Part shown: piece by piece, positions 9,187 to 50,121 of the stretch
How the letters are laid out: the number at the start of each line of letters is the position of its first letter
Position numbering within the stretch: position 1 is the first letter of the stretch
DNA from: Chloroflexi bacterium CFX6
GTDB lineage: Bacteria; Chloroflexota; Anaerolineae; Anaerolineales; Villigracilaceae
Reading direction: 5' to 3'
Assembly: GCA_030263595.1 (NCBI GenBank)
Contig: SZPG01000007.1
Coordinates: 1 to 64,000, forward strand
Length of the DNA stretch: 64,000 nucleotides
The notes under the pieces: model-generated
Seen by the model: the letters and a program-made list of their open reading frames with translations, nothing else
Databases searched by the model: none
What the model was told of the DNA's origin: nothing
Translations under genes and position numbers: made by a program

Positions 9187-10521
9187 TTATTCGACCCAAT
9201 CGAAGGCGCGCGTCACAGCCTTCTTCCAACCTGAGTATAACTTCTTTCGCAATTTCGCGTCCATTGCAGGATGCCATTCCCTGTCCTTTTTCCAGTTGGC
9301 GCGCAGTTCGTCGTAATCCTTCCAGAAGCCGACGGCGAGTCCCGCCGCGTACGCCGCGCCAAGGGCGGTCGTCTCCGCGACCTTCGGGCGGATGACCGGT
9401 ACATTCAAAATATCGGATTGGAACTGCATCAAAAGGTCGTTGAACACCATCCCGCCGTCCACTTTGAGCGCGGTGAGTTTCACGCCCGAATCCTTTTCCA
9501 TCGCGTCGAGAACTTCGCGCGTTTGATACGCGGTGGCTTCGAGCGCGGCTCTTGCAATGTGACCCTTGTTGACGTAACGCGTCAAGCCGACGATGACGCC
9601 GCGCGCGTCGGACTTCCAATACGGCGCGAACAATCCAGAAAACGCAGGGACGAAATAGATGCCGCCGTTATCCTCCACCGATTTCGCCAGCGCTTCCACC
9701 TCCGCCGACGACTGGATCAGTCCCAAATTATCCCTCAGCCACTGGATCAACGCGCCCGTGATCGCGATCGAACCCTCGAGCGCGTAGACCGCCTTTTGAT
9801 CTCCGATCTTGTATCCCAGGGTTGTGAGCAATCCCGCCTTGCTTTGCACGGATTTTTCACCCGTGTTCAATAACATGAAACAACCCGTCCCGTATGTGTT
9901 CTTCGCTTCGCCCGCGCTGAAACAGGTCTGCCCGAACAACGCGGCTTGCTGGTCGCCGAGGTTCCCAGCAACAGGAATCCCTTGTAGGGGTGAGGTCATC
10001 TCGCCCCGATCTGGGCGGGGAGACCCCGCCCCTACCTCACCATAGATTTCAGACGACGATTTGATCTGCGGCAGCATCGCGCGAGGAATGCCCAACACGC
10101 CCAGGATTTCCTCATCCCAATCCAGCGTATCGAGATTCATCAGCATCGTGCGCGAGGCGTTGGTCACATCCGTGACGTGAACGCCGCATAGATTCCAGAT
10201 CAGCCACGCATCAATGTTCCCAAACAACAACTCCCCGCGTTCGGCTTTCTCCCGCGCGCCGTCCACGTGATCGAGAATCCACTTGATCTTGGGGCCGGAG
10301 AAATAGGTCGCGAGAGGCAAGCCCGTCTTTTCGCGAAAACGATCCTGACCGCCCTCACGCGCCAGTTCGTTGATGATCGCATCCGTGCGCGTATCCTGCC
10401 AGACGATGGCATTGTAGATCGGCCGGCCGGTATCCTTATCCCACACCACCGTCGTCTCGCGCTGATTCGTAATTCCAATTGCCGCAATCCCACCGAACGC
10501 TGATAACTGTTCACTGCTCAC
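9187..10521 (-). CDS. glpK: Glycerol kinase lacking its N-terminus (main fragment of a split glpK)
   Basis: The 444-residue frame matches glycerol kinase from the [22 protein letters not shown] segment (cut here at about residue 13) to the end, including [13 protein letters not shown] and the C-terminal ATP domain [19 protein letters not shown]. Intact GlpK is about 500 residues; the missing part carries the first phosphate-binding motif, found in another frame just upstream (10,518-10,643). The nominal GTG start at 10,521 lies inside a tandem repeat and overlaps the TGA of that fragment (GTGA). An in-frame palindromic insert (9,984-10,040) encodes [16 protein letters not shown]. Without the phosphate-1 motif on the same chain, kinase activity is doubtful unless both pieces reassociate. 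Sequencing or assembly error is another possibility. Confidence 0.8.
9984..10040. repeat. glpK: In-frame GC-rich palindrome inside glpK
   Basis: GTAGGGGTGAGGTCATCTCG on the left is mirrored by CGGGGAGACCCCGCCCCTAC on the right around CCCCGATCTGGG. It lengthens GlpK by about 16-18 residues without shifting the frame, between GEVGAG and [14 protein letters not shown]. Glycerol kinases of other bacteria run straight from the E(V/I)YG segment to IPIAG. Likely one of the dispersed repeats of this genome. Confidence 0.6.
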
Positions 10522-10540
10522 TGATAACTGTTCACTGCTC
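10501..10540. repeat. Two-copy 21-base tandem repeat that breaks glpK
   Basis: TGATAACTGTTCACTGCTC occurs at 10,501-10,519 and again at 10,522-10,540 (period 21). It replaces the coding stretch that should join residue 34 of GlpK to the rest. It brings a stop codon into the N-terminal frame and a net frame change. Related TGATCACTG-type repeats occur at 30,747-30,782, 32,284-32,350, 42,841-42,868 and 46,752-46,775. Confidence 0.8.
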
Positions 10541-10643
10541 GATGTTCCTTTTGGTCGGCGGCAATTACATTTCCCGCGTGATCGAAGATCATAAAACGAG
10601 TGCTGGTCGTGCCCTGGTCAATTGCGGCGACGTATTTTGGCAT
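10518..10643 (-). pseudogene. glpK: Detached N-terminal 34 codons of glycerol kinase
   Basis: From an ATG at 10,643 the frame reads [20 protein letters not shown] and on to AADQKEH. This is the classical GlpK N-terminus with the phosphate-1 motif DQGTTSTR. After residue 34 it runs into the 21-base repeat (RAVNSYQ) and stops at TGA 10,520-10,518. The rest of the kinase resumes in another frame about 53 bases on. By comparison with normal GlpK about 40 residues are missing. The stop overlaps a GTG that opens the main frame, so stop-restart translation is conceivable, but the lost segment would still be absent. Confidence 0.8.
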
Positions 10644-10711
10644 AACTCACCTCTGGACACAATTGTAAAACATAATGATATTCGGCGGTCAACTCCGTGA
10701 CAAACATTACA

Positions 10712-10758
10712 TTCAAAATCTCGAATATGTCGTTATGATGTATTCAGGTTTATGAATA
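10712..10758 (+). promoter_or_regulatory. Candidate arsR promoter with inverted-repeat operator
   Basis: TTCAAA (10,712-10,717) and TATGAT (10,734-10,739), 16 bases apart, fit a -35/-10 pair (4/6 and 5/6 matches to consensus). Directly downstream an inverted repeat TATTCA-6-TGAATA (10,741-10,758) covers the expected transcription start and the arsR ATG. ArsR/SmtB repressors bind such TTCA/TGAA dyads, so this is a plausible self-regulation site. The divergent glpK fragment begins about 70 bases away. Confidence 0.5.
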
Positions 10759-11126
10759 TGAGGAAACAACCCCTCGTCACGGTTTCCGAGAAAATTGCCG
10801 CGCCCCTGGGAGCTATCGCTTCGCCGCAGCGCGTCGCCATCCTGCTCGCCATCGGAAACGGCGAAGCCTGCGTCTGTCATCTCGAAGCCGCGCTCGGCTG
10901 GCGGCAGGCGTACATCTCACAACATTTGATGGCATTGCGCAAGACGGATATTTTGACCGACCGCCGCGAGGGACGCTACGTCTTCTACCGCTTGAAAGAC
11001 GCCTCTTTGCTCGACCTGATCACTGCCTCCGCCCGCCTGAGCGGACTCCCCGCCGAGACCGTCTCCGCGTTCATCAACACGGACACATACCCTGCCTGTG
11101 AATGTCCGCATTGCGCTCAAACTTGA
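10752..11126 (+). CDS. arsR: ArsR-family metalloregulator
   Basis: The 124-residue winged-helix protein has the ArsR recognition region (SPQRVAILLAI, then WRQAYISQHLMALRKTDIL and the wing DRREGRYVFYRL). The motif EACVCHL at about residue 37 matches the ELCVCDL metal site of ArsR proteins, whose cysteines bind As(III)/Sb(III). A further Cys cluster, CECPHC, ends the protein and may contribute ligands. It heads the arsenic cluster and should repress it from the dyad overlapping its own start. The ATG at 10,752 is used; a second ATG is two codons later. Confidence 0.9.
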   Translation: MNMRKQPLVTVSEKIAAPLGAIASPQRVAILLAIGNGEACVCHLEAALGWRQAYISQHLMALRKTDILTDRREGRYVFYRLKDASLLDLITASARLSGLPAETVSAFINTDTYPACECPHCAQT

Positions 11127-11130
11127 AATC

Positions 11131-11309
11131 GTACGGCAAGATTTCTCCCGCCAAAAGTCGGCGTAAGAGAACGCCGGCTACGCATGAACAATGTACGGCA
11201 AGATTTCTCCCGCCAAAAGTCGGCGTAAGAGAACGCCGGCTACGCATGAACAATGTACGGCAAGATTTCTCCTGCCAGAAGTCGGCGTAAGAGAACGCCG
11301 ACTGCGCTG
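11131..11309. repeat. Nearly three copies of a 62-base hairpin repeat between arsR and the permease
   Basis: Copies begin at 11,131, 11,193 and 11,255 with a period of exactly 62. The first two are identical and the third diverges near its end. Each contains a small hairpin (GTCGGCGT-AAGAGA-ACGCCGRC). Together they fill most of the 204 bases between arsR and the permease start at 11,331. Open frames here are artefacts of the repeat. They may reduce read-through or simply be expansion of a dispersed palindrome. Confidence 0.9.
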
Positions 11310-11330
11310 AAAGCTGAAACCAAAAACAAC

Positions 11331-12713: not shown

Positions 12714-12731
12714 CGCCATAGGCTTTTGGTA

Positions 12732-12793
12732 AGCGGATGTCAGAGAACATCCGCTACGCGCCCTCGGCGTAAGAGACGCTCTCTAGCGTCGGA
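12732..12793. repeat. Two short hairpins after the permease gene
   Basis: AGCGGATGT-CAGAGA-ACATCCGCT (12,732-12,755) is a perfect 9-base-pair hairpin. It is followed by CGGCGT-AAGAG-ACGCT and CTCTAGCGTCGG (12,765-12,793). The CAGAGA/AAGAGA loop and the CGGCGT arm tie both to the 62-base repeat upstream. They sit in the 100-base gap before the first thioredoxin-like gene. Confidence 0.65.
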
Positions 12794-12813
12794 TTGAATG
12801 AAAGGAGACCGAC

Positions 12814-13062: not shown

Positions 13063-13069
13063 ATCACTC

Positions 13070-13103: not shown

Positions 13104-13119
13104 CGATCAAGGAGAAAAT

Positions 13120-13371: not shown

Positions 13372-13382
13372 TTGACGGTCGC

Positions 13383-16310: not shown

Positions 16311-17261
16311 TCACGCCCAATTGCGCGCGCCTGCGAGGAAGGCTTTTCCGCTCATGGATTTTTTCCCGGCGGGCTGCACTTCGTCCAGGATGAGAAGCCC
16401 GCCTCCCCCTTCGGGGACGGTGCGCGCGCCGACCGCGGGCTGGTTCTGCACGATCAACCTTTTTCCTGCTTTTACCGCCCTCGACCCCAACCCCTCTCCC
16501 GGCGGGAGATGGGCGGCGTGCGCGCGATGGACTTTGAGTATTGTCCCATCGAAGTCCATGAATGCGCCGGGCCAGGGATTGAACGCACGAATTTGCCTCT
16601 CCAATTCATGCACGTCACGCGTGAAATCAAGTCGTCCCTGCTCTTTTTTCAGCATCGGCGCGTAGGTCGCGCCTTCCTCGGGTTGCGGTTGGGGGATCAG
16701 TTTGCCGGATAGATAATCGGGCAGGGCTTCGAGGAGCAGGTCCGCCCCCAGCGTGGACAAGGCCTGGGTGACCGAACCAGCCGTATCGTCCCGCGTGAGG
16801 CGGATGGAGCGCTGCGCGAGGATCGGTCCCGTATCGAGTCCGGCGTCCATTTGCATGATCGTCACGCCCGTCTCTTCATCCCCATGCAGGATCGCGGCAT
16901 TGATCGGCGCCGCTCCTCTCCATCGCGGAAGCAACGACGCGTGGACGTTGAGGCACCCGAAACGCGGCAAATCCAGAACGTCCTTTTTGAGGATCTGCCC
17001 GAATGCCGCAACGACGATGAGATCGGGATTCCATCTTCGCAACTGCTCCATCGCTTCGGGTTGTTTGAGTTTTTCGGGCTGCATAACAGGGACGCCCAGT
17101 TCGAGCGCGAGGGTTTTGACGGGAGGCGGTTTGAGTTCGCGCCCGCGGCCCGAGGCGCGATCGGGTTGCGTCACAACGCCGACAACATCATAACGTTCTG
17201 CGAGCGCGCGCAGGCTCGGCAGAGCAAATTCAGGCGACCCCATGAAGACGATGTTTGCCAT
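16311..17261 (-). CDS. fmt: Methionyl-tRNA formyltransferase
   Basis: The 316-residue protein has the Fmt catalytic core: FMGSPEFALPSLRAL at the start, AFGQIL, LNVHASLLPRWRGAAPI with the key Asn/His, and the Asp motif EETGVTIMQMDAGLDTGPI. It formylates initiator Met-tRNA with 10-formyl-tetrahydrofolate. The C-terminal domain is present (from about residue 205) and holds a short in-frame palindromic insert (HLPPGEGLGSRAV). Another Gly-rich stretch (PEGGGGLLILDEVQPAGKK) closes the protein. ATG at 17,261. Confidence 0.95.
   Translation of the reverse strand: MANIVFMGSPEFALPSLRALAERYDVVGVVTQPDRASGRGRELKPPPVKTLALELGVPVMQPEKLKQPEAMEQLRRWNPDLIVVAAFGQILKKDVLDLPRFGCLNVHASLLPRWRGAAPINAAILHGDEETGVTIMQMDAGLDTGPILAQRSIRLTRDDTAGSVTQALSTLGADLLLEALPDYLSGKLIPQPQPEEGATYAPMLKKEQGRLDFTRDVHELERQIRAFNPWPGAFMDFDGTILKVHRAHAAHLPPGEGLGSRAVKAGKRLIVQNQPAVGARTVPEGGGGLLILDEVQPAGKKSMSGKAFLAGARNWA
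16484..16515. repeat. fmt: In-frame CCCCTCTCCC/GGGAG palindrome in fmt
   Basis: CCCCAACCCCTCTCCCGGCG meets GGGAGATGGG, giving CTCCCGGCGGGAG at the centre. It encodes PPGEGLGS-like residues on the minus strand, the same peptide flavour (GEGLG) as the copy in the prophage integrase at 40,677-40,733. It lies in the Fmt C-terminal domain, a tolerant place. Confidence 0.6.
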
Positions 17262-28959: not shown

Positions 28960-31509
28960 TTACACAACCAGACTCACCAACCGTCCCTTTGCCACGATCA
29001 CCTTCTTCGGCTCTTTGCCGTCAAGATACTTCTGAACGACCTCGCTCGCCAGCGCGGCGGATTTGATCTCCTCCTCGTCCGCATCCGCAGGGACGGTGAT
29101 TCGGTCGCGCACTTTGCCGTTGATCTGCACCGGCAGTTCGATCACCTCCTCCTTCGCGGCTTCCTCATCGAACTTCGGCCATGTCTGTTGGTGGATCGAG
29201 TACGGTTTGCCCAGATGATTCGTCCACAGTTCTTCGGCGATGTGCGGCGCGACGGGAGCCAGCATCTTCAAGTAGATTTCAGTCGCTTCGTCCCATTCGG
29301 GAGTTCCTGCCGCGCCCGCCTCGCGCGCCTTGTACATCTCGTTCAGCAGTTCCATCAACGAAGAGATGATGGTGTTGAATTCGAAGTTCTCGAAGTCGTG
29401 CGTGACTCGTTTCAGGGTTTGGTGAACCTTTCGTCTCAAGACCTTTAGGGTCTCCGGGGACCCTAAGGGTCTGTCCTCAGGACGATCCGTGAACAACGTC
29501 CAGACGCGTCGCATCCAGCGCGCGGTCCCTTCGATGCCCTGCGAGTCCCAGGGCGCGCCCATCTCCCAGCGCGCAAAAAACATGATGTAGGCGCGCACGG
29601 TGTCCGCGCCGTATTTCTCCACCAGCACATCGGGCGCGACCACGTTGCCGCGGCTCTTGGACATTTTGCTGTGATCCTCCGCCAGCACCATGCCCTGGTT
29701 GCGCAGTTGCATCATCGGCTCGTTGCCTTCGGTGATGCCCATGTCGCGCAATGCCTTGTGGAAGAAGCGCGTGTACAGCAGGTGCATGGTGGCGTGTTCG
29801 ATGCCGCCGGTGTACGTGTCAACGGGCATCCAATAGTTGTATTCGGCTTCGTCGAACGGACCCTGGTCGTAATGCGGACTCAGATAACGCAGGTGATACC
29901 ACGACGAACACATGAACGTGTCCATCGTGTCGGTCTCACGCACGGCGGGTTCGCCGCATATCGGGCAGGTCGTGTTCTTCCACGTTGGATGCAGTTTCAA
30001 CGGCGACTCGCCCGTCGGCTTCCATTCCACGTCCTCGGGCAGCATCACGGGCAGTTGATCTTCAGGGACGGGATTCCATCCATGCACATCGCAATGGATC
30101 ATGGGAATCGGCGCGCCCCAATAACGTTGACGGCTGATCAGCCAATCGCGATAACGATAATTGACCGCCTCTTTGCCGATGCCCTTTTCCTCCAGCCAGT
30201 CAATCACCGCGCCGATGCCGGGATTCTTGCGTCCCTTCTCATTGTTGACCTTCGTTCCATTGAACGGACCCGAGTTGACCATGACTCCCGCGCCGACGTA
30301 TGCCTCTTGCAACTCGCCTCTCTCGCCCCCATCCCCTCTCCCAGTGGGAGAGGGGTGCAGGGGTGAGGGTTCGGGCCTGATCACTTCGACGATGGGCAGG
30401 TCATACTTTTTGGCGAACGCGAAGTCGCGCTCGTCGTGCGCAGGGACCGCCATGATCGCGCCGGTGCCGTAGGACATCAACACGTAATCCGCGATCCAGA
30501 TCGGGATGCGCTCGTTGTTGACCGGGTTGATGGCATAACCGCCTGTGAAGACGCCCGTCTTTTCCTTGTCCGCGGCTTCGCGTTCGATGTCCGATTGGCG
30601 CGCGGCTTGCGTCTTGTATGCTTCGACTACCTCTCGTTGTTCCGGCGTTGTAACCCTGTCCACCAGCGGATGCTCAGGCGCGAAGACCATGAACGTCGCG
30701 CCCCACAACGTGTCGGGACGTGTTGTAAAAACGATCACACTCTCGTCAGATACTGATGACTGATCACTGATCACTGGAAACTGGACTTCCGCTCCCTCAG
30801 AGCGTCCGATCCAGTTCGTTTGCAGGGTCTTCACGCGTTCGGGCCAGTCCAGTTCATCGAAGCGCAGCAGTTCGTCGGCGTATTGTGTGGTCTTGAAGAA
30901 CCACTGCTCCAAGTCCTTTTTGACGACAGGCGTGCCGCATCGTTCGCAGACGCGGTTTTCGCCGATGACCTGTTCGCGCGCCAGTGTAGTATTGTCCTTC
31001 GGGCACCAGTCCACGGCGGACATTTTGCGATATGCCAGCCCTGCCTTGTACAACTGGATGAAAAACCACTCGGTCCACTTGTAATATTCGGGGTCGGACG
31101 AAACCGCCTCGCGTTCCCAATCGAACATTGCGCCCATGGACTTCAGCTGCTTCCGCATCCGCTCGACGTTCTCGGCAGTCCGTTTCATCGGATGGACGCC
31201 GTCTTTGATGGCGGCGTTCTCGGCGGGCAGACCGAACGCGTCGAACCCCATGGGGAACAGAACGTTGTATCCCTGCATCCGCTTGAAACGGGCGCGCGCG
31301 TCAGACGGCGTCATCGCGTACCAGTGACCGATGTGCAGGTCGCCGCTGGGATAGGGCAGCATGGTCAGCGCGTAATGCTTGGACTTGTTCTCGTCAATCA
31401 CGGCGCGGTACAACTTGTCCGCTTCCCATTTTGCCTGCCATTTCTTCTCGATGACGTTCGGGTTGTAAGAAATGTCTTTTGTTTCTGTTTGTTGTTTCGT
31501 TTTGGTCAT
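28960..31509 (-). CDS. leuS: Leucyl-tRNA synthetase with in-frame repeat inserts
   Basis: The 849-residue class I synthetase has the HIGH box PYPSGDLHIGHW, the LeuRS KMSKS box HSKMSKSRGNVV, a CP1 editing domain (FTTRPDTLWGATFM), a zinc-type Cys cluster TTCPICGEPAVRETDT and the C-terminal VQINGKVRDRITV. It charges tRNA-Leu. The start is the ATG at 31,509, with GAGG upstream; the longer frame to 31,578 lies in the leader. Three short inserts keep the frame: FPVISDQSSVSDESVI (about 30,745-30,783), PSPLHPSPTGRGDGG (about 30,312-30,375) and RPLGSPETLKVLRR (29,436-29,483). All fall in loops, so function is probably kept. Expression is under the T-box at 31,757-32,130. Confidence 0.96.
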   Translation of the reverse strand: MTKTKQQTETKDISYNPNVIEKKWQAKWEADKLYRAVIDENKSKHYALTMLPYPSGDLHIGHWYAMTPSDARARFKRMQGYNVLFPMGFDAFGLPAENAAIKDGVHPMKRTAENVERMRKQLKSMGAMFDWEREAVSSDPEYYKWTEWFFIQLYKAGLAYRKMSAVDWCPKDNTTLAREQVIGENRVCERCGTPVVKKDLEQWFFKTTQYADELLRFDELDWPERVKTLQTNWIGRSEGAEVQFPVISDQSSVSDESVIVFTTRPDTLWGATFMVFAPEHPLVDRVTTPEQREVVEAYKTQAARQSDIEREAADKEKTGVFTGGYAINPVNNERIPIWIADYVLMSYGTGAIMAVPAHDERDFAFAKKYDLPIVEVIRPEPSPLHPSPTGRGDGGERGELQEAYVGAGVMVNSGPFNGTKVNNEKGRKNPGIGAVIDWLEEKGIGKEAVNYRYRDWLISRQRYWGAPIPMIHCDVHGWNPVPEDQLPVMLPEDVEWKPTGESPLKLHPTWKNTTCPICGEPAVRETDTMDTFMCSSWYHLRYLSPHYDQGPFDEAEYNYWMPVDTYTGGIEHATMHLLYTRFFHKALRDMGITEGNEPMMQLRNQGMVLAEDHSKMSKSRGNVVAPDVLVEKYGADTVRAYIMFFARWEMGAPWDSQGIEGTARWMRRVWTLFTDRPEDRPLGSPETLKVLRRKVHQTLKRVTHDFENFEFNTIISSLMELLNEMYKAREAGAAGTPEWDEATEIYLKMLAPVAPHIAEELWTNHLGKPYSIHQQTWPKFDEEAAKEEVIELPVQINGKVRDRITVPADADEEEIKSAALASEVVQKYLDGKEPKKVIVAKGRLVSLVV
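29436..29483. repeat. leuS: In-frame AGACC...GGTCT palindrome in leuS
   Basis: AAGACCTTTAGGGTCTCC is followed by GGGGACCCTAAGGGTCT, an imperfect palindrome like the perfect one at 13,070-13,103. It adds about 15 residues between the catalytic core and the anticodon-binding domain of LeuRS. Confidence 0.7.
30312..30375. repeat. leuS: In-frame CCCCTCTCCC...GGGAGAGGGG palindrome in leuS
   Basis: CCATCCCCTCTCCCAGTGGG runs into AGAGGGGTGCAGGGGTGAGG. CCCCTCTCCCA-G-TGGGAGAGGGG is a perfect palindrome around one base. The insert encodes PSPLHPSPTGRGDGG within the editing domain, after VEVIRPE and before QEAYVGAGV, where other LeuRS sequences have a short loop. Confidence 0.85.
30745..30783. repeat. 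leuS: In-frame TGATCACTG-type repeat in leuS
   Basis: ACTGATGACTGATCACTG followed by ATCACTGGAAACTGG encodes PVISDQSSVSDE just before the VFTTRPDT strand of the editing domain. It is the same repeat family as at 42,841-42,868 (SHQSSVISDQSE in a prophage gene) and as the glpK-breaking repeat. Confidence 0.75.
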
Positions 31510-31552
31510 TCTTGCCTCGTTGTAAAAAGTGTCAGGTGTCAGGTTCCACGTG

Positions 31553-31660
31553 TCAGGTGGTTGTCTCTTTGCGGACAAGGAGGCGCGAAAGCTCGCTCTG
31601 AGCGCAGTCGCAGAGAAGAGGACCTTCCTTCCAGAAGATGTAATTGATCCGAACGTTCAT
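31553..31660 (-). CDS. 35-codon ORF between T-box and leuS, HicB-like N-terminus
   Basis: An AAAGGAGG ribosome site stands 6 bases before the ATG at 31,660, so it is likely translated. MNVRINYIFWKEGPLLCDCA resembles the first strand of HicB-like antitoxins (xxIxYxFWKEG), but then becomes low-similarity sequence encoded by a palindromic repeat (CTCTGCGACTGCGC... region) and stops. It may be a truncated HicB-like remnant, or serve as a small upstream ORF of leuS. Too short for any function call. Confidence 0.5.
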   Translation of the reverse strand: MNVRINYIFWKEGPLLCDCAQSELSRLLVRKETTT

Positions 31661-31756: not shown

Positions 31757-32130
31757 AAAAAATCCTTCATCCACTCAGGGACGAAGGATCAGCCTCCGCG
31801 GTACCACCCGGGTTCGTCTTTTAGTCTGATAGTCTTAGAGTCTAATAGTCTTATAGACTAATAGTCTCATAGTCTCGTAGTCTATCAGTCTCATCGCCTC
31901 CTGATTATCAGCCAAATGACTATCAGACTATTAGACTATCAAACTATCAAACCAACCGACGCTCTTTGATCGCTATAACGGGCAGACCCGTGGATGACTA
32001 CTTCACGTTCACCATCCAAGCCTCTCTTTCGAGAAAACAGGCGAGTTCGGTCTTGTATGGCATTCCCGTTCGATGCCGTTGAAGGGCTTCCACCTCGCTC
32101 TCCCTTCTCGCTGACGGGACGACCTACTAC
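31757..32130 (-). promoter_or_regulatory. T-box riboswitch leader of leuS
   Basis: On the minus strand the invariant T-box GGGTGGTACCGCGG occurs at 31,809-31,796. A terminator hairpin ATCCTTC...GAAGGAT with TTTTTTGTTTTT follows at 31,790-31,745. Upstream GGGAGAGCGAGGTGGAAGCC (about 32,106-32,087) fits the stem I distal region. A likely specifier loop GAACTCGCC holds CTC (Leu) at 32,045-32,043. Uncharged tRNA-Leu would pair with it and antiterminate. TTGACG at about 32,158-32,153 may be the -35. An unusual repeat array sits between the stems and the antiterminator. The 670 bases between tRNA-Ala and leuS hold only this leader and the 35-codon ORF. Confidence 0.88.
31818..31957. repeat. Degenerate tandem array of GTCTNATA/TAGACTAT units inside the T-box leader
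   Basis: TCTTTTAGTCTGATAGTCTT is followed by more than ten AGTCT(A/G/C)ATAG-like units of 9-11 bases, first in one direction (31,818-31,890) and then as the complement (TGACTATCAGACTATTAGAC, 31,917-31,957). The two halves can pair into a long stem. A short piece of the same repeat stands before the tape measure gene (44,922-44,965). It probably expanded within the loop between stem III and the antiterminator. Confidence 0.85.
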
Positions 32131-32283: not shown

Positions 32284-32350
32284 AATCAGTGACCAGTTTG
32301 ATCTGTTCGGCAACTGAGTTACTGATCACTGTTTATTGGTCACTGAACAG
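32284..32350. repeat. TGATCACTG-type repeats between the two tRNA-Ala genes
   Basis: TTAATCAGTGACCAGTTTGA, then TTACTGATCACTG and TTGGTCACTGAACAGTG. These are the same small inverted units as those in leuS, glpK and the prophage, here in a neutral place. Confidence 0.65.
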
Positions 32351-40028: not shown

Positions 40029-40478
40029 ATGACACGACAACCGCTTCTCAAACATCAACACATCGTAAAACTGACCCGCCTGCTCGACATGCTTTACAAG
40101 CCGAGCGAGATCGCTGAAGAGATTGGCGTTGCCACCGACACCATTTATCGCTCCTACCTCCCCGCAGGCCTGCCGCACACTCGTGACAGCCAGGGCAGCA
40201 TCTGGATCCACGGACCTGCCTTCATCGCCTGGGCGCGTCAAACCATAGCGAAGAAAAAAACGGACCGCATCGGACTCCCCGACGATCACGCCTGGTGCAT
40301 GAAATGCAATAGGGCAGTGGAGCTGATCGAACCCAAAACTAAACAAGTGAATCGATATCTGGAATTGCTCCAGGCTGTCTGTCCCCACTGTGGCAAAAAA
40401 ATCAACCGCGCCCGCGCCCGCCAACTCCCCTCGCCTTCAGGAGAGGGGCAGGGGGTGAGGTCAGGGAGGGGGGCATGA
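40029..40478 (+). CDS. HTH/zinc-ribbon protein upstream of the integrase (possible excisionase-type factor)
   Basis: The 149-residue protein has a helix-turn-helix (YKPSEIAEEIGVATDTIYRS, about 21-40) resembling excisionase/MerR-like folds, and a zinc ribbon CMKC (about 88-91) to CPHC (about 118-121). The ATG at 40,029 has GGAG 10 bases upstream. The last 20 or so residues (LPSPSGEGQGVRSGRGA) come from a GC-rich palindrome. It overlaps the integrase by 4 bases (ATGA), so is probably its accessory DNA-binding factor; this is inferred. Confidence 0.7.
   Translation: MTRQPLLKHQHIVKLTRLLDMLYKPSEIAEEIGVATDTIYRSYLPAGLPHTRDSQGSIWIHGPAFIAWARQTIAKKKTDRIGLPDDHAWCMKCNRAVELIEPKTKQVNRYLELLQAVCPHCGKKINRARARQLPSPSGEGQGVRSGRGA
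40428..40463. repeat. In-frame GC-rich repeat at the 3' end of the HTH gene
   Basis: CCCCTCGCCTTCAGGAGAGG continues GGCAGGGGGTGAGG. It is an inverted CTCGCC...GGAGAGG form of the CCCCTCTCC/GGGGAGGGG family and encodes PSPSGEGQG. Confidence 0.7.
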
Positions 40479-41503
40479 TCCACCGACAAAACTGGCTCGA
40501 CGTCCGCGCCTACCTCCACCACATCGAGCGCGTTCGCCAGAACGACCCCCAGACCGTCAAACGCGCCCGCGGCCACCTCCGCCACCTCCTTGAATGGGCG
40601 GACGAAACGCCGTTCGCCAAATCTCGCAACATCGACCCAACTTTCCCCGCCTACCTCCTCGCTGTCCGCAAATCCCCCTCCCTATTTTCGACAGAAAATG
40701 GGGAGGGGCTAGGGGTGGGGCAGGGGGTTGGTCTCTCCCCCGCCTCCATCACAAAATGCCTGGCAAATGCCCGTCAATTCTTCGACTTCGCCCGCTCCGA
40801 ATGGACTCTCCGCTATAAACCCATCTCCGCCTCCTGGATCGAACTCCTCCAGCCTCCCCGATCCGTTCGCCAGGACTCCCGACTCCCCGTGCGGCAGTTC
40901 TGGCAATTGGATGATGTTATGAAGGTGTCCGCCGTTGCCACAGAAACGCTCCGCGAAGAGCGCGGTAAAGTGGCGGTCTGCATATTGTTCCTGAGCGGTA
41001 TGCGCGCCGATGCCCTCGCATCCCTGCCCATCTCCTGCGTGGACTTGGCGGATCGCACGATCTATCAACTCCCCGAGCGCGGCGTGCGCACCAAAAACCG
41101 CAAAGCCGCCAAAACCTACCTCCTCCAAATCCCCGATCTTCTCACTGTCGTCAACCGCTGGAATGACCTGCTCTCCGCCTCCCGCCTCCCGCCTTCTGCC
41201 CTCTGGTACTCCACCCTCTCCCGCGACGGCATGACTCTTACCCCCACCGCTCATGCCTTCGAAGGTCGGCACAACATTATTGCTGAAGATGTCCGTTTAA
41301 TCTGCGAAAAGACAGGCATCCCCTACCTCTCCCCCCACAAACTTCGCCACGGACACACCGTCTACGCCCTAAAGCGGGCATCCAACGTCGCCCAGCTCAA
41401 AGCCATCTCCCAGAACATCATGCACGCCTCCCTCGTCACCACCGACCAGATCTACGGCAAACTCATCAATGACGACGTGCAGGAGATCATTTCATCTCTA
41501 TAA
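40475..41503 (+). CDS. Phage integrase, tyrosine recombinase
   Basis: The 342-residue protein has a SAM-like core-binding domain (about 1-130) and a catalytic domain with the first Arg in FLSGMRADALASLP (about 172), the HxLRH box SPHKLRHGHTVYA (about 290) and the nucleophile Tyr in TTDQIYGKLIND (about 328). A repeat-derived insert (FSTENGEGLGVGQGVG, 40,677-40,733) lies inside the core-binding domain without breaking the frame. It would catalyse integration at the adjacent tRNA-Pro. It is convergent with the tail fibre gene, 2 bases apart. Confidence 0.9.
   Translation: MIHRQNWLDVRAYLHHIERVRQNDPQTVKRARGHLRHLLEWADETPFAKSRNIDPTFPAYLLAVRKSPSLFSTENGEGLGVGQGVGLSPASITKCLANARQFFDFARSEWTLRYKPISASWIELLQPPRSVRQDSRLPVRQFWQLDDVMKVSAVATETLREERGKVAVCILFLSGMRADALASLPISCVDLADRTIYQLPERGVRTKNRKAAKTYLLQIPDLLTVVNRWNDLLSASRLPPSALWYSTLSRDGMTLTPTAHAFEGRHNIIAEDVRLICEKTGIPYLSPHKLRHGHTVYALKRASNVAQLKAISQNIMHASLVTTDQIYGKLINDDVQEIISSL
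40677..40733. repeat. In-frame CCTATTTTC...GAAAATGGGGAGGGG repeat in the integrase gene
   Basis: CCCTCCCTATTTTCGACAG is followed by AAAATGGGGAGGGGCTAGG and GGTGGGGCAGGGGG. The palindromic arms CCCTCCCTATTTTC/GAAAATGGGGAGGG surround GACA-like loop bases. Encodes SLFSTENGEGLGVGQG. Confidence 0.85.
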
Positions 41504-42829: not shown

Positions 42830-43331
42830 CCCACACCTCGGACTGATCACTGATCACTGATGACTGATGACTTTTTACTGCCCCTCTGAGCCTCTGCACC
42901 CTCAATAATTCCACCGTCTCCCCAGGGTTCCAGCTCCTCGACACCCCAGGCGTCAAGCTCTTCGCATTGATCGCCCTGTCAATCGGCTTCAACTTTGGGT
43001 TCACGTACACCTCGCGCTCCAACAGCTCGCGCTCGATATCCAACCTATTCTCCGGGAACACCACCGCCCGCAACTTCCCCCCGCTGGGAGCATTCCCGCA
43101 CGTCGCACAGAAATACACGGGGTCGCTCGGCTCCACGTAGTTCGCACTCCCGCACTCGCAGTCCGCGAGCCACCTGCCGAAATCCACCCGTGCGAACACC
43201 CGCTCCCCCCCCATCTCCGCGCCAGGCACAAAACCGCGCCGCCCCGCCAGCCCCGCCATCATCTCCCTGAAGGTCTTGAACCCCAACTCCCTCGCCTTAT
43301 CCGCACCGCTGTAAATCTTCTCCGTCATCAT
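42819..43331 (-). CDS. Phage protein with zinc ribbon, tail region
   Basis: The 170-residue protein has an N-terminal helical half (KIYSGADKARELGFKTFREM) and a four-Cys zinc ribbon CECG (about 59-62) to CATCG (about 74-78), then a charged segment with NPKLKPIDRAINAKSLTPGV. Its last 20 residues (SHQSSVISDQSEVWDGD) come from the TGATCACTG repeat. It may mediate assembly of tail tip proteins. GGAG stands before the tandem ATGs at 43,331/43,328. Confidence 0.55.
   Translation of the reverse strand: MMTEKIYSGADKARELGFKTFREMMAGLAGRRGFVPGAEMGGERVFARVDFGRWLADCECGSANYVEPSDPVYFCATCGNAPSGGKLRAVVFPENRLDIERELLEREVYVNPKLKPIDRAINAKSLTPGVSRSWNPGETVELLRVQRLRGAVKSHQSSVISDQSEVWDGD
42841..42868. repeat. TGATCACTG-type repeat at the 3' end of the zinc-ribbon gene
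   Basis: GACTGATCACTGATCACTG then ATGACTGATGACT. Encodes VISDQSEV-like residues in frame, as in leuS. Confidence 0.75.
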
Positions 43332-44971: not shown

Positions 44972-46753
44972 TCACGCCAGCCCCCTCTCCCGCAACAGCA
45001 CTCCCACCGCGCCCGCGATCTTTCGCGCCACGTCCCGCTCGTCCGTCACGCCGTCCGATGTCATATTGATATGGATCACCGTCCCGCCGCCCGCCGCGCT
45101 TCCGAACATCCCACCGCCCGTCATCTCCGCGCCGCCCCAGGCTGTCGCGCTTGGCATCGCAAAACCCGCCGCGGTCGCAGGCATCAGGCTCTTTAGACTC
45201 TTCTCGTAGCCCGAGATCTGCCCCGCCCCCATCTCCCAGCCCACCTCGTGCTCGAACACCTTCGAAGGGCTTTCGATCCCCAGAAACCCCTTAGCCGCTT
45301 CCAGTGCCGCATTTGCCGCTCGCTTTGCCGCATCCTTCAGCCATTCGATGCTGTTTATGATGCCGTTACCGATCCCCTCGATGATGTTCCTCCCAACCTG
45401 CCCCCAGTCGGTGTCCCTGAAAAAACTGATCACAGATTCGACTAAATTGCTGAACCCCGTTTTCAGGTTCTCCCACGCGGTCGTGGCGATGGTCGTGATC
45501 AACTTCCACGCCGCATCCCATGCCTCGCGTAACTTCTCGCCGAACGCCCGCCAATCTCCCTCCCGCGCCGCCTGGAACGCCTGCATCAGCGGACCGATGA
45601 TCGTCATCGCCGCCTGGATCGCATTCTGGATGAACTGCCACGCCGTCGCGATTGCGCTCTTGATCCCCTCCCACACTGCCGCTGTCTTCTCGCGGATGCC
45701 TCCCCAGTTGTTTTGCCATGCCGCATACAACAACGCCAGCGCCCCGATGATCACCGCCACCACGATCAGCACCGGCGCGCTCACTGCCCCCACTGCCCCA
45801 GCGATTGCCGTGAAGATCGGGATCAGCGTCCCGATCGCGCTCACGATGGATCCGATGATCACCAGTAGAGGACCCAGCACCGCCACGATCCCCAACACTG
45901 TCAGGATGTTCTGCTTCATGCTCGGGTCCAACGCGTTGAACCACGCGATCCCCTCCCGCACCCATCCCAGCAATTGGATGGCATATGGCATTAGCATTTG
46001 TCCGATGCTCGCCGCCAGATTCGTAAACTCGGCCTTGGCGATCCTCGTCTGGTTCGCCATCCCGTCGGACGTGTTCGCAAAATCGCCTGCTACCTGGTTC
46101 GTCTGCTCGTAGATCAATGCCAACGCCGCTTGTGCCTTTGCCGCGTCGTTCACCTCGCCTGTCGCGTCGGCTAGATTCATCTCGATCGCCTTCGCCTCGA
46201 TCGCCGCCGCGTTCAACTTCACGCCGAACTGCTCCAGCGGGTTGAACTCTCCCTTCAGCCCGCTCTGGATCGCCTGGAGCGCGGACGAAACATCCGTATT
46301 GAATATGCTCGCCATGTCCGCCGCGCGCTCGGTCAGGTTGATCGTCTCCTCCGCTGCCTCCTGCTGGTCGAATCCCAGGTTCTTCAGGAATGCGCCAGTC
46401 ACTGCCCCCATCTGGTTGAACTCCGCTGTCGCCAGTCCCACCGTCGTCGCCGAAGTCTGCCCATATTCATGCAGCACGCCTGCCGCATCCCCGAACACCA
46501 CGTTCACCGCGTTCGCGCTCTCATTCAGGTCGCTGAACGCGTCCACAGCCAAAACCGCCCCGCCCACGATCGGCAGGGTGAAAGCCGCCGTCATCGTCTT
46601 CCCCGTGCCGGAGAGTTGGTCTCCCGCTTTCTTCCAGGCTTTACCCACGCGCTCCGCTGAGCGCACAGCCTTCAACTCCGCCTTCTCCATCTCTGCCGAG
46701 AAGCCGCCGATATCAGCCGCCAGTTTTACGATCAACGTCGCTAATGTCGCCAT
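44972..46753 (-). CDS. Phage tail tape measure protein
   Basis: The 593-residue protein has an N-terminal helical region (KAVRSAERVGKAWKKAGDQL), the phage-tail-tape-measure block AVDAFSDLNESANAVNVVFG with NQMGAVTGAFLKNLG, a long hydrophobic centre (about 270-350) and repeated helix units (WEGIKSAIATAWQFIQNAIQ). It sets tail length; about 600 residues suggests a tail of about 90 nm by the 1.5 angstrom-per-residue rule, which is inference. It follows two chaperone-type genes as usual. Confidence 0.92.
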   Translation of the reverse strand: MATLATLIVKLAADIGGFSAEMEKAELKAVRSAERVGKAWKKAGDQLSGTGKTMTAAFTLPIVGGAVLAVDAFSDLNESANAVNVVFGDAAGVLHEYGQTSATTVGLATAEFNQMGAVTGAFLKNLGFDQQEAAEETINLTERAADMASIFNTDVSSALQAIQSGLKGEFNPLEQFGVKLNAAAIEAKAIEMNLADATGEVNDAAKAQAALALIYEQTNQVAGDFANTSDGMANQTRIAKAEFTNLAASIGQMLMPYAIQLLGWVREGIAWFNALDPSMKQNILTVLGIVAVLGPLLVIIGSIVSAIGTLIPIFTAIAGAVGAVSAPVLIVVAVIIGALALLYAAWQNNWGGIREKTAAVWEGIKSAIATAWQFIQNAIQAAMTIIGPLMQAFQAAREGDWRAFGEKLREAWDAAWKLITTIATTAWENLKTGFSNLVESVISFFRDTDWGQVGRNIIEGIGNGIINSIEWLKDAAKRAANAALEAAKGFLGIESPSKVFEHEVGWEMGAGQISGYEKSLKSLMPATAAGFAMPSATAWGGAEMTGGGMFGSAAGGGTVIHINMTSDGVTDERDVARKIAGAVGVLLRERGLA

Positions 46754-46843
46754 TCACTGCTCACTGCTCACTGTTTTGCGTTTCGCTTTCTCCCCTCTCC
46801 GAATTCGCTTTCTGAATTTGGGGAGGGGTCGGGGGTGGGGCTT
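46752..46843. repeat. Two repeat families in tandem at the 3' end of the chaperone II gene
   Basis: TTCACTGCTCACTGCTCACTG (46,752-46,772; here TTCACTGCTCACTGCTCACT plus G) is next to CCCCTCTCCGAATTCGC and AATTTGGGGAGGGGTCGGG (46,794-46,838), whose arms pair. Both are read in frame into the protein tail. Confidence 0.75.
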
Positions 46844-47165
46844 CCTTACTCGCGCTCACCAGCATCCCGAAGAACGTCTTCACCTTATCGACCACGCTCA
46901 CAGGTTTCGACTCTTCTGCCTCTTCATGCTCGTCCAGCGCTCCCTCGAAATCGAAAAACTTCCTGAAATCCTCGGGACTCCATTGTTTCTTGCGGCTATC
47001 CGTCCATAGGTTTGCGACCACAGCAGCCAGCACCATAAAGCGGTAATCCATCCGCGACTCCCCGAAGGGCTGCAAACGCGCGAACCCCAGCCACTCCGAG
47101 AATTCCAGGCTGCTGACAGACTCCTGGCATGCCCGCACCGATGGATGACCCAGCGCCAGCGTCAA
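46761..47165 (-). CDS. Tail assembly chaperone-like protein II
   Basis: The 134-residue protein carries SLEFSEWLGFARLQPFGESR MDYRFMVLAAVVANLW (two parts), the pattern of the GpT/DUF4035-like segment encoded before tape measure genes. Its ATG overlaps the stop of the upstream gene (ATGA at 47,162-47,165), so it is made by restart rather than by the classical slippage. The last 30 residues (PPPTPPQIQKANSERGESET QNSEQ) are encoded by two repeat families. Confidence 0.75.
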   Translation of the reverse strand: MTLALGHPSVRACQESVSSLEFSEWLGFARLQPFGESRMDYRFMVLAAVVANLWTDSRKKQWSPEDFRKFFDFEGALDEHEEAEESKPVSVVDKVKTFFGMLVSASKEAPPPTPPQIQKANSERGESETQNSEQ

Positions 47166-47560: not shown

Positions 47561-47988
47561 TATGACACCTCGCTCACGGGTCCCGTGATCTTCAGCGTTA
47601 CGTCGGTTTCCAGAAGACCGTCAACGGGTCCGTCGGGATCGAACTGCGTCACCAGTGCCGCAAACTGATATGTGGTGCTGGTCGTATCGGGCAGGACGAT
47701 CTGAAAGTTTCGCTGTGCGCGGTTGATCAGGTCCGCCGCCAGTCCCGCCCCGAAACTGTGACTCGCGTCGTCGGGCAGGAAATTCAACTTGAACGAACAC
47801 TCGCCCCCCTCGATCAATGTGGATTTGAACGTGCGCCACGCGCCTGGCGAACCGTGGTGCGTCGTCTCCTTCGTTTCGGCTTTCAACTTGAACGGTTTGA
47901 TGTCCTTCACTTCCGCCACGGACGAGAAGGTCTCGGGTGAGCCGCCGTTCCCGCGCTTCAGCAAAACTCCATAAGATGCGTGTGACAT
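47560..47988 (-). CDS. Phage major tail tube protein
   Basis: The 142-residue protein has the siphovirus tail tube pattern: SYGVLLKRGNGGSPETFSSV at the start, ETTHHGSPGAWRTFKST and INGVVTS-like closing LETDVTLKITGPVSEV. The fold polymerises into the tail tube around the tape measure. An ATG at 47,988 with GGAG upstream. Size and place fit. Confidence 0.85.
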   Translation of the reverse strand: MSHASYGVLLKRGNGGSPETFSSVAEVKDIKPFKLKAETKETTHHGSPGAWRTFKSTLIEGGECSFKLNFLPDDASHSFGAGLAADLINRAQRNFQIVLPDTTSTTYQFAALVTQFDPDGPVDGLLETDVTLKITGPVSEVS

Positions 47989-47996
47989 ATCGTCTC

Positions 47997-48075
47997 CTTT
48001 TATTGTTTGTTCCCCTCGCCATCCTGAGCGGAGGTGTATCCGCCGCAGTCGAAGGATGGCGAGGGGCAGGGTCTA
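47997..48075. repeat. GC-rich palindrome between tail tube and neck gene
   Basis: CCCCTCGCCATCCTGAGCGG ... CGAAGGATGGCGAGGGG: the arms CCCCTCGCCATCCT and AGGATGGCGAGGGG are exact complements around a GTGTATCCGCCGCAGTCG-type centre. The same element with slightly different sequence lies at 49,376-49,446 and 50,052-50,121. Confidence 0.85.
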
Positions 48076-48079
48076 CACT

Positions 48080-48445
48080 CTACACCAGCTGGATCACAGC
48101 CCACTTCACAGCCGCGTTGCTGGCTTCGATGTACACGAACCCGTCGCTCTGCATCCAGCCTGGCTTCTTGAAGCGGAACGCCGCGATCTCTCCCGCGCCC
48201 AGCGAGAATGTGGTCACGTCGCCCGTCCGCTTGAACTCGTCCGCCACCGACGTGAACGTGATCGTGTATGCGCTGGCGCCTGTATTGTGGATGATCACCA
48301 GGTCGTCGCCGCTCGGCGCGAATTGGTCCTTGTTCGCCACATCCGCCGCGGTCTCCACCAGGTCGAGCGCATTCGCCGCCACAGGCAATGTCGGATAAGG
48401 CCCATACGGTAACTGCTTTGTGATCGTTTGTCTTGCCATGTTCAT
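48080..48445 (-). CDS. Phage head-tail region protein, beta-sandwich type
   Basis: The 121-residue protein MARQTITKQLPYGPYPTLPV... (start ATG 48,445 or 48,439) is beta-rich with VIIHNTGASAYTITFTSVAD and ends YIEASNAAVKWAVIQLV. Similar small proteins occur beside tail tube genes and may be minor tail or decoration proteins. Function is not recognised. Confidence 0.6.
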   Translation of the reverse strand: MNMARQTITKQLPYGPYPTLPVAANALDLVETAADVANKDQFAPSGDDLVIIHNTGASAYTITFTSVADEFKRTGDVTTFSLGAGEIAAFRFKKPGWMQSDGFVYIEASNAAVKWAVIQLV

Positions 48446-48840
48446 TCTCCTTTTCTATATGTGATCGTGCAATCCTGCGATCGCACGAATAAACCTGTTT
48501 CCCGGTTCCACGTGTCTTCCGGATCCATGAAAAAAATACCATTCAATTGAATAATTCCATTGCCCAATGACCGTTTCCCGCTCAATCCAGAGCGGATTGC
48601 CTCTGCCAGTTCGATGACCGTCTCGTACGTATCGGCGATTGCCGAGAGTTGAAAACGCGCTCTCTGGATTCTCGATTCGCCCTCGTGCGTATACTGCACC
48701 TCCCCAGTCACGCGCCGATACGTAATGAACGGGCTGGCGCTCGTCTGTGGCGCCGCCACCGGATACACCCGGTCGCCGATCAAACCCGCCACTCCGGGGA
48801 GCTCTGTGATCTCACTCGCCAATGCGCTCTCAAGACTCAT
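48442..48840 (-). CDS. Tail completion/terminator-like protein (DUF3168-like)
   Basis: The 132-residue protein has ITELPGVAGLIGDRVYPVAA PQTSASPFITYRRVTGE (in two parts), the pattern of DUF3168/gp11-like tail completion proteins that cap the tail before joining the head. It overlaps the next gene by 4 bases. ATG at 48,840. Confidence 0.8.
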   Translation of the reverse strand: MSLESALASEITELPGVAGLIGDRVYPVAAPQTSASPFITYRRVTGEVQYTHEGESRIQRARFQLSAIADTYETVIELAEAIRSGLSGKRSLGNGIIQLNGIFFMDPEDTWNRETGLFVRSQDCTITYRKGE

Positions 48841-48860
48841 CTCGCCTCACGCAACACGTA

Positions 48861-49364
48861 TCATCCCGTCTTTTCCAATATTGCCCGCCGATACACGTCT
48901 CCAACTGCATCCACGATCTCATCCGTGCGTTGCATCGCCGGTTGCAAAAATGGACGGGCGCTCACCCCGCGCACCCGGCGGGCGAAGATCGGCTGCCCGC
49001 CCTCGTACCATCTCAGCATCGAGACGCGCTTATCGCTCACCGTCGAATTGACCTTCTTCAAATATGACTGGAAGCGTGTCTTCTTGTGCTTCGGACCGTG
49101 TCCCTTCGTCCCAAACTCACGGAAACGATAGAACCACTTCTCCTTCTTCGGTCCGATGGACGCCACCGCCCGCCCTGAACTCTCCACGACCACCTCGACT
49201 CCAATGTGCGGACCGGGCGCATTCGCACTTGCGTGCCTCTGCACCACCTGCGCCCCTGCCTCTGCCGCCTCGCGAAACACCGCCTGCGTCGCCGCGCCGC
49301 AAGCCCGCAGTCGGCTGGTCAGTTCGTCCAGTCCTTCGAATTTCGTTGTAATTGTGTCAGTCAT
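48861..49364 (-). CDS. HK97 gp10-like head-tail/neck protein
   Basis: The 167-residue protein FEGLDELTSRLRACGAATQA with AEAGAQVVQRHASANAPGPH fits the HK97-gp10-like family (helical start, then xxARxxAPxxTG region). Such proteins form part of the neck between connector and tail. A GC-rich repeat lies between this gene and the next. Confidence 0.82.
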   Translation of the reverse strand: MTDTITTKFEGLDELTSRLRACGAATQAVFREAAEAGAQVVQRHASANAPGPHIGVEVVVESSGRAVASIGPKKEKWFYRFREFGTKGHGPKHKKTRFQSYLKKVNSTVSDKRVSMLRWYEGGQPIFARRVRGVSARPFLQPAMQRTDEIVDAVGDVYRRAILEKTG

Positions 49365-49375
49365 CTCTTGCTTTC

Positions 49376-49446
49376 TCCCCTCTCCATCCTGAGCGGAGGC
49401 GTACCCGCTGTAGTCGAAGGATGGGGAGGGGCTGGGGGAGGGGTCA
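49376..49446. repeat. GC-rich palindrome before the gp10-like gene
   Basis: CTCCCCTCTCCATCCTGAGC ... GTAGTCGAAGGATGGGGAGGGG: arms CCCCTCTCCATCCT and AGGATGGGGAGGGG pair almost perfectly around GAGCGGAGGCGTACCCGCTG. Second copy at 50,052-50,121 is near-identical. Confidence 0.88.
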
Positions 49447-49767
49447 AAGTACCTCGTGGCACATCAACCACGTCTCCCTGTGCTCGCCGAACTGATCCAG
49501 CGCTGACTCGATATGGTACGTATGCGTGCCTTCCACCACTCTCATCTCTGGACGGATGTCGTTCCGATATCGGATGCGGATGCGGATCGTCACATCCGCC
49601 TGCACCTGCGTTGCCTCGATGAATTCGCGCCCGCTCATCGGCTCCACCGCCGCCCACACGGTCGCCACCAGCGCGTCGTACGCGGGGATCTCCTCGCCCG
49701 GCCCGTTCCGCGTCACCGTACCCTTATCGTAGATCTTCACGCGGCGCCGCAACTTCCCGATATTCAT
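49444..49767 (-). CDS. Phage head-tail adaptor (gp9/SPP1 gp16-like)
   Basis: The 107-residue protein MNIGKLRRRVKIYDKGTVTR... with AAVEPMSGREFIEATQVQAD and RIRYRNDIRPEMRVVEG is the standard head-tail joining/stopper protein fold (phage_H_T_join). It closes the head after packaging and links to the tail. Consistent in length and place. Confidence 0.9.
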   Translation of the reverse strand: MNIGKLRRRVKIYDKGTVTRNGPGEEIPAYDALVATVWAAVEPMSGREFIEATQVQADVTIRIRIRYRNDIRPEMRVVEGTHTYHIESALDQFGEHRETWLMCHEVL

Positions 49768-50037
49768 TTACTCGTCCTCTTCATCCCCCTCTCCATCAGT
49801 GCTCTCCTGATGGGGAGGGGCAGGGGAGGGGTCTGCCTCCTCGACTGCCTCTTCATTCCCCTCTCCATCAGTGCTCTTCTGATGGGGAGGGGCAGGGGAG
49901 GGGTCTGCCTGCGCCTTGCCGATCGAAACCAGATAACCCGCGGCGTCCATCTCCGCTGGGCTGATCGCCTCGATCACATCCCCAACGCTCGCAGGTCGTC
50001 CCATGAAATTACACGTCGAAAGAACGTGGATCTGCAT
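49768..50037 (-). CDS. Small head-region protein whose C-terminal half is two repeat copies
   Basis: The 89-residue protein has a real-looking N-terminus MQIHVLSTCNFMGRPASVGD VIEAISPAEMDAAGYLVSIG (in two parts) that resembles small phage proteins found between connector and adaptor. The rest is DPSPAPPHQKSTDGEGNEEA and DPSPAPPHQESTDGEGDEE, which are two 72-base copies of the GC-rich repeat (49,785-49,838 and 49,857-49,910). ATG at 50,037. Confidence 0.65.
   Translation of the reverse strand: MQIHVLSTCNFMGRPASVGDVIEAISPAEMDAAGYLVSIGKAQADPSPAPPHQKSTDGEGNEEAVEEADPSPAPPHQESTDGEGDEEDE
49785..49910. repeat. Two in-frame 72-base copies of the CCCCTCTCCATCAG/CTGATGGGGAGGGG palindrome
   Basis: Each copy has CCCCTCTCCATCAG, a GTGCTCT(C/T) loop, CTGATGGGGAGGGG and CAGGGGAGGGGTCTGCCT. 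Spacing of 72 bases keeps the frame and gives a 24-residue peptide repeat. Confidence 0.92.
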
Positions 50038-50051
50038 GATTGCTCCTTATT

Positions 50052-50121
50052 CTCCCCTCTCCATCCTGAATGGAGGCGTACCCCCCGTAGTCGCAGGATG
50101 GGGAGGGGTCGGGGGAGGGGT
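50052..50121. repeat. GC-rich palindrome between connector and small head gene
   Basis: CCCCTCTCCATCCTGAATGG ... GTCGCAGGATGGGGAGGGG, a near copy of the element at 49,376-49,446. It ends right at the stop of the connector gene. Confidence 0.85.

Follow-up and report, generated by a model that had tools for sequence, protein, structure and literature searches.

How do short GC-rich palindromes come to lie, in frame, inside unrelated genes? The question is raised by a window of 64,000 nt (the whole stretch of DNA analysed here) at the start of contig C70 (SZPG01000007.1) in the 4.07-Mb, 141-contig assembly of Chloroflexi bacterium CFX6 (genome G000). A preliminary description of this window had listed such elements in leuS, fmt, glpK and several prophage genes, and inspection of each site found a palindrome at every listed place (Table 1). 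Here we report that the type called F1, together with its relatives, makes up a broad family of palindromic inserts that are found inside as well as between genes. Those that we observed inside genes preserve the frame and occupy variable loops and linkers that are used by other palindromes in sister species. Moreover, genes with a DUF559 nuclease domain are associated with palindromes, often of the same CT/GA-rich kinds, that bracket them at about half of the loci examined, in Chloroflexota, Alphaproteobacteria and Cyanobacteriota.

Form and dispersal of F1

A full F1 copy has the layout CCCTCACCCC-nn-CCCCTCTCCC-nnn-GGGAGAGGGG-nnn-GGGGTGAGGG, while many copies comprise a single outer arm only. 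F1 carries no GTAG tag. F1 is open in two of the three frames, in which it gives either LTPTPLPxGEGxGVR or PSPxGRGxxGEG. Similar peptides (PSPxGEGxG) had been attributed to all coding copies; this is only partly correct, since F1 is translated in more than one frame and the peptides in GlpK and in the tail and head genes have different sequences. For annotation this is a warning: peptides of the LTPTPLPxGEGxGVR type are mobile DNA and not the signal of a protein family.

The right half of F1, written as GAGGGGN{1,5}GGGGNGRGG, matches G000 76 times compared with 10 times for the reversed pattern. The matches form 60 clusters, among which two likely chance matches (L049, L063) and two copies combined with a palindrome of a second family (L019, L064) were kept. 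A stricter pattern, GGGAGAGGGGN{1,5}GGGGTGAGG, gives 49 matches versus 0 reversed in the same genome and is found in 110 of 400 Chloroflexota genomes, with a maximum of 947 (G328) and only 2 control matches among the matches listed. Copies are therefore dispersed genome-wide, and 33 of the 60 clusters are embedded in an open frame that shows codon signal to the left and right of them (a minimum of 40 codons and a score of at least 5 per flank); a crude sorting by frame splits these 33 into 24, 4 and 5. Pfam matched 28 of 30 F1 host open reading frames (ORFs), leaving L005 and L040 without a match. Matched domains that contain or adjoin an insert are those of AlaRS, CinA, ThyX, MutS, MetH, aconitase, gamma-glutamyltranspeptidase, several amidohydrolases and, in a transaldolase-isomerase fusion, the isomerase.

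That these copies are in-frame inserts, as first proposed, is borne out by relatives that do not have them. Twenty-six of the 60 clusters were chosen for comparison and 25 queried, L051 being excluded because its piece contained a second element; 21 were compared for length and 19 gave results. Between anchors, the length in G000 minus that in the relative is divisible by three in 40 of 42 comparisons, the two others (L024 and L041) both being with G001. Some insertions are older, since F1 is common to G000 and a relative at the first site of L046 (G005), at L041 and, in degenerate form, at L053 (both G001) and at L048 (G014).

The leuS copy in the window is complete, in frame and of the host-type pattern, and the named LeuRS relatives nearest to this protein belong to Anaerolineales, Chloroflexota. 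From 110 loci (some genomes occurring twice), 98 LeuRS loops before EAYxGxGVMVNS were readable. F1 occupies this loop in G000, G006, G021 and G011; an unrelated palindrome, F2 (CCCCCCAAATTC..GAATTTGGGGGG), fills it in G013 and JACRBI010000009.1, and palindromes starting with GTAG do so in G009, G010, JAUQXA010000070.1 and QZIJ01000124.1 (GTAC in the last). The loop is short in G001 (93% identity, residues 14-639), G005, G007 and G014, the insert replacing about 15 nt of the G001 loop; its equivalent in the LeuRS of T. thermophilus (1h3n) reads ERPGEPLPEP. The site in GlpK is short in G001 and G006 and holds another inverted repeat (GGTCGAGTAG..CTACTCGACC) in G004, G007 and G014. AlaRS carries F1 in G000 and F2-type palindromes in G005, G007 and G014, and the Fmt loop that concerns us is short in G001 and contains fuller F1 copies in G007 and G021. 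In LeuRS, GlpK, AlaRS and aconitase, the same loops are filled by different elements in different species. This repeated use of loops, like the link with DUF559, lay beyond the view of the preliminary description; the alignments of LeuRS, Fmt and integrase that it had proposed did reveal relatives without the insert.

Host and phage were also said to share the elements. A phage variant, TGGGGAGGGG..GGGGxGGGG, has six exact copies in G000; they share one strand and fall between 40.7 and 50.1 kb of C70. The corresponding pattern, TGGGGAGGGGN{2,3}GGGGNGGGG, for which the reversed control counts 4 in G000, was matched among 25 genomes searched by two places in G001, one in G011 and nine in G025 (control there seven). 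Within G000 only the prophage has the variant, consistent with a subfamily of the phage lineage. The claim of sharing is therefore only partly right; of the copies in the window, those in leuS and in the HTH (helix-turn-helix) gene follow the host-type pattern.

DUF559 genes and their palindromic ends

A DUF559 match is present in 187 of the 400 Chloroflexota genomes. A relative of the domain with known structure, 3hrl, bears the name Endonuclease-Like Protein (E 8.4e-20), and PMC12907096 describes the domain as frequent in Vsr-like PD-(D/E)XK nucleases. Palindromes at the ends of these genes were counted as perfect arms of at least 10 bp within 150 nt upstream or downstream. The 30 Chloroflexota loci are the best-scoring matches, mostly one per genome and thus a non-random draw; L479, in which no motif was found, was excluded. 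Of the 29 readable loci, 20 have palindromes upstream and 16 downstream; these numbers include 14 loci with palindromes at both ends, and 7 loci have none at either end. Palindromes account for 0.195 of the bases near the gene, compared with 0.024 in the remainder of these loci and 0 in the domain itself. A plasmid sample (20 of 42 records fetched, with near-duplicates and human-pathogen records excluded) comprised Azospirillum, Sphingomonads, Sinorhizobium, Methylobacterium, Photobacterium, Deinococcus and cyanobacteria; 12 of its loci have palindromes upstream, 7 downstream and 6 on both sides, with a base fraction of 0.134 versus 0.012. As a control, gene ends of leuS were treated in the same way at the 50 loci (of 80) whose flanks were complete, the gene start being placed 90 nt before the match. 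Here palindromes were found upstream in 0, downstream in 29 (terminator-like) and on both sides in 0.

Where palindromes flank both sides (20 loci), one end resembles the other with a mean score of 19.8 within a locus versus 7.3 between loci (0 of 20,000 permutations), although a preference of each genome for one palindrome family may contribute to this. Families vary by locus (CCCTCTCCC.., CTCCCCCAAATT.., CCCCTTCCCT.., CCTCCCC..), of which the first represents F1 and the second F2, both also occurring solitary in genes. A start with a pyrimidine nonamer (CT-type) is seen in 34 of 71 palindromes near DUF559 compared with 3 of 166 in LeuRS loci.

DUF559 is also found within host proteins. Large frames (at least 600 codons) numbered 18 among the matches listed; all were fetched and 17 were readable, L507 giving no ORF. 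Eight of the 17 are MetH. A Pfam scan that covered eight of the readable frames identified further hosts as three DUF1156 proteins, one methyltransferase each of MmeI-type and type ISP, and two N6_N4 methyltransferases; L500 is also called type IIG by PADLOC, and L511 and L512, outside the scan, resemble L506. The MetH cassette of G000 (L510; G000:C110:36500-43500) consists of in-frame palindromes, DUF559 and again palindromes, all F1-type, measures about 216 residues and lies between the pterin-binding and B12-binding domains. Ten genomes from four families (f1, f7, f12, f36) have such a cassette, counting G482 and G030; the linker behind VEADIDEII or the equivalent residues could be read directly in nine, and for G482 it is deduced solely from a continuous alignment. 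In genera g1, g5 and g24 it is present in some species and missing in others, so that the site is filled in some relatives and empty in others, as is looked for in a homing element. G288 and G302 are 90% identical in DUF559 versus 80% in the host protein, the values for G302 and G085 being 73% versus 92%, and the DUF559 tree groups G288, G302 and G058 (97/95). In two N6_N4 methyltransferases, L505:1158-4913 (-) and L508:1987-6057 (-), an intein C-terminal model scores above cut-off after DUF559, which would place DUF559 at the homing-endonuclease position of two inteins. On the N-terminal side the intein reading is putative and is based on motifs. DUF559 proteins in the databases presumably often begin with palindrome-coded peptides.

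Some further DUF559 observations stand apart. Two Deinococcus plasmids carry a DUF559 gene among hpa-region genes (L551, L557), at different places and antiparallel to the neighbouring genes. At G000:C133:55276-59242 (L490-L494) several partial DUF559 matches lie within 4 kb and are apparently decayed; inspection of L490 revealed no F1 palindromes. A search of viral contigs for DUF559 gave six pattern matches, none of which was confirmed. Sinorhizobium meliloti carries CCCTCTCCCC palindromes.

Possible routes of movement

We tentatively favour, with a confidence somewhat below even, a reading in which the DUF559 cassettes are the autonomous form and the solitary palindromes their offspring. 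The palindrome-DUF559-palindrome cassette would constitute the autonomous element. Its nuclease would cut target sites, possibly guided by an extruded hairpin, and repair of the break would copy the palindromic ends into the cut. Solitary palindromes would then be non-autonomous products mobilised in trans, as repetitive extragenic palindromes (REPs) are thought to be by REP-associated tyrosine transposases (RAYTs). Preservation of the frame would result from selection after insertion and lie outside the mechanism itself, and the prophage subfamily would have multiplied within the phage lineage. The wider proposal, namely that DUF559 represents a previously unrecognised class of mobilising enzyme, which together with flanking palindromes would enter genes in frame as an autonomous element, and a RAYT-independent REP-type system across several bacterial phyla, with solitary palindromes at hundreds of places, is possible on the sequence evidence but rather doubtful. 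The DUF559 cassette is in any case the new and testable part. If DUF559 were the partner, the movement of in-gene palindromes could be studied at the bench, a function could be assigned to a family of "unknown function", and the route by which proteins gain loop segments would become visible.

A number of observations weigh against the cassette as the source of F1. By a stricter two-sided test, F1 is in frame at 21 of the 60 clusters versus 41.8% of random places in the same DNA, and genes are therefore not preferred targets but are hit at chance frequency or somewhat below. A target-site duplication was not readable in any comparison of inserts with relatives, which are diverged and differ in loop length, and an exact empty site at the level of strains was not seen. 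Over the 400 genomes, 81 have both F1 and DUF559, 29 F1 only, 106 DUF559 only and 184 neither, giving an odds ratio of 4.8 that ignores the kinship of the genomes. The 29 F1 genomes (of 110) without a DUF559 match include G073, G082 and G223, with as many as 319, 389 and 191 F1 matches, respectively. A two-sided bracket is missing at 15 of the 29 loci from Chloroflexota and at 14 of the 20 from plasmids; seven of the former (L459, L462-L465, L476, L488) are palindrome-free within 150 nt on both sides, and three Deinococcus loci have no palindromes. The possible contribution of one favourite family per genome to the matching ends, mentioned above, belongs here as well, as does the fact that no intein N-terminal model matched in L505 or L508. 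For the MetH cassette, the approximately unbiased (AU) test does not reject grouping of DUF559 by host (p 0.13), and homing at this site is therefore possible only. Finally, on C98 an F1 copy (C98:22,582) and a Y1_Tnp match (C98:24,135) are separated by 1.5 kb.

The latter proximity speaks for a different partner: REP-like elements might be moved in trans by Y1 transposases (RAYT or IS200-type), with DUF559 as a frequent neighbour or cargo. G000 has five Y1_Tnp matches, the glpK element is GTAG-tagged like the REP super-family concerned, and intragenic in-frame REPs with RAYT partners are documented in PMC3733652. However, F1 has no GTAG tag, F1-type motifs stand at both ends of several DUF559 genes, and in 4.0-8.6 kb around the five Y1_Tnp matches (G000 only) no F1 motif or CT-type palindrome was found, the C98 copy falling just outside the stretch fetched. 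We regard this alternative as rather unlikely, and a RAYT partner in G000 as weakened. Palindromes and DUF559 could also be independent passengers of tolerant places such as linkers and gene ends, the bracket being the by-product of a hot spot. Indeed, the LeuRS, GlpK and AlaRS loops accept several unrelated inserts, and DUF559 is frequently found between genes or in methylase loci. Yet none of the 50 leuS genes has palindromes at both ends, and DUF559 ends match within a locus far above those of other loci, even if part of this may come from a palindrome family preferred across a genome; such a coincidence of passengers seems improbable.

Plain homing is another explanation to which we give a low probability. 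DUF559 would be a homing endonuclease that sometimes gained palindromes, while solitary F1 spread by an unrelated route. The patchy filling of the MetH linker across f1, f7, f12 and f36 genomes and the DUF559 domains inside inteins agree with this, as does a Vsr-type homing endonuclease family cited in PMC12350094, but it leaves unexplained the palindromes at bracketed DUF559 genes outside host proteins. As to native low-complexity or chance GC-rich sequence, or an artefact of a single assembly, the GC-rich host and the 10 control matches are what could be said for them. Both were rejected and are very improbable: the insert is missing from orthologues, and restriction to one contig or assembly is contradicted by the other named assemblies (L136, L145) and the 110 of 400 genomes that carry F1.

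How does the cassette reading relate to known systems? The comparison with Rickettsia palindromic elements (RPEs) made in the preliminary description is supported as a likeness of behaviour, palindromic DNA being found in frame inside unrelated protein genes. The host is different (Chloroflexota/Anaerolineales and not Rickettsiales), and a nuclease cassette and a prophage subfamily are seen here. The GTAG/CGTC REPs are likewise small, many-copy palindromes, some of them intragenic, and about the same recB site is taken by different REPs in two Xanthomonas species (PMC3733652). The same paper treats intragenic REPs, including GTAG repeats, and RPEs as already known. REPs are mostly extragenic, whereas F1 is often intragenic (33 of 60 clusters, or 21 of 60 by the stricter test) and has no GTAG tag, a look that the glpK element does fit. 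As in the REP-RAYT systems (REPtron/REPIN), a nuclease-type gene is proposed to be flanked by palindromes that it moves, but the partner would be DUF559 (PD-(D/E)XK, Vsr-like) and not a Y1 tyrosine transposase. The MetH cassette, with its F1 ends, is a candidate for the autonomous partner known from miniature inverted-repeat transposable elements (MITEs). With EDxHD/Vsr homing endonucleases and inteins it has in common a Vsr-type nuclease that lies in frame in host proteins and patchily at one site; unlike them, it is flanked by palindromes, and no splicing model was found by Pfam in the MetH cassette of L497. In the open-licence literature, judged by titles and the beginnings of abstracts among the entries listed, no description of F1 or of the DUF559-palindrome bracket was found; palindromic inserts themselves are of a known kind.

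Copies and other repeats in the window

Table 1. Palindromic elements of the window and the leuS gene (positions within the window)
Feature	Position	Strand	Remark
GTAG-tagged palindrome in glpK	9984..10040	-	codes 18 residues; family other than F1
Truncated F1-like copy in fmt, variable loop near C-terminus	16484..16515	-	missed by the whole-genome pattern
leuS	28960..31578	-	PDB 1h3n match, E 6.9e-256
F1 in leuS, loop before EAYVGAGVMVNSGPFNG	30312..30375	+	codes PSPLHPSPTGRGDGGERG on the minus strand
Host-type F1 as C-terminal extension of HTH gene	40428..40463	+	comparison with four relatives
Phage-variant palindrome in integrase	40677..40733	+	in frame; PHROG integrase
Phage-variant palindrome near C-terminus of tail gene	46794..46843	+	gene is minus-strand ORF 46,761-47,165, PHROG tail protein
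Intergenic composite palindrome, CCCCTCGCC arms, inner CATCCTGAGCG.. palindrome	48008..48083	+	
Intergenic composite palindrome, phage variant	49373..49448	+	
Phage-variant palindrome in small minus-strand ORF, first unit of 72-nt tandem duplication	49785..49838	+	
Phage-variant palindrome, second unit of the same 72-nt tandem duplication	49857..49910	+	
Intergenic composite palindrome, phage variant	50050..50125	+	

Among the host genes, the fmt copy is present as claimed, in a variable loop, but it is truncated. The glpK palindrome, which had been called a related form, does exist, but its tag assigns it to another family; the query part 977-1036 also matches G001:C117, G007:C13 and G024:C82, outside glpK.

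In the prophage, the integrase insert is missing from four related phage integrases (43-65% identity), and a search of these four loci for F1 nonamers found none. Relatives of the HTH gene end 4-7 residues (three of them) or 12 residues (the fourth) past the matched part. PHROGs confirmed the names integrase and tail but gave none for the HTH gene, which had weak matches only, or for the small head ORF (49,768-50,037), which had no match; "HTH" remains the name given in the preliminary description because no strong PHROG match was obtained. The two copies reported in the head ORF, near its C-terminus, are both present but represent one tandem duplication and not two insertions. Its neighbour at 50,121-50,690 is a head-tail adaptor (PHROG). 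The copies noted at 47,997, 49,376 and 50,052 lie between phage ORFs, and their loop contains a second palindrome (CATCCTGAGC..).

Other repeats were encountered in the window. A 62-nt tandem repeat is present in three copies at 11131-11316, and a 60-nt repeat array occupies 51144-51923 within ORF 50991-52478 (-). An inverted array of GTCTAATAGTCTTATAG-type units lies at 31815-31961, between leuS and the tRNA-Ala genes. Short tandem 7-mers (ACTGATC/ACTGATA/ACTGTTC) are dispersed at 10489-10544, 30756-30783, 32320-32345, 42841-42880 and 46753-46775. Another dispersed repeat lies at 9098-9179, parts of which have dozens of short matches on contigs of G001, G007, G019, G024 and others.

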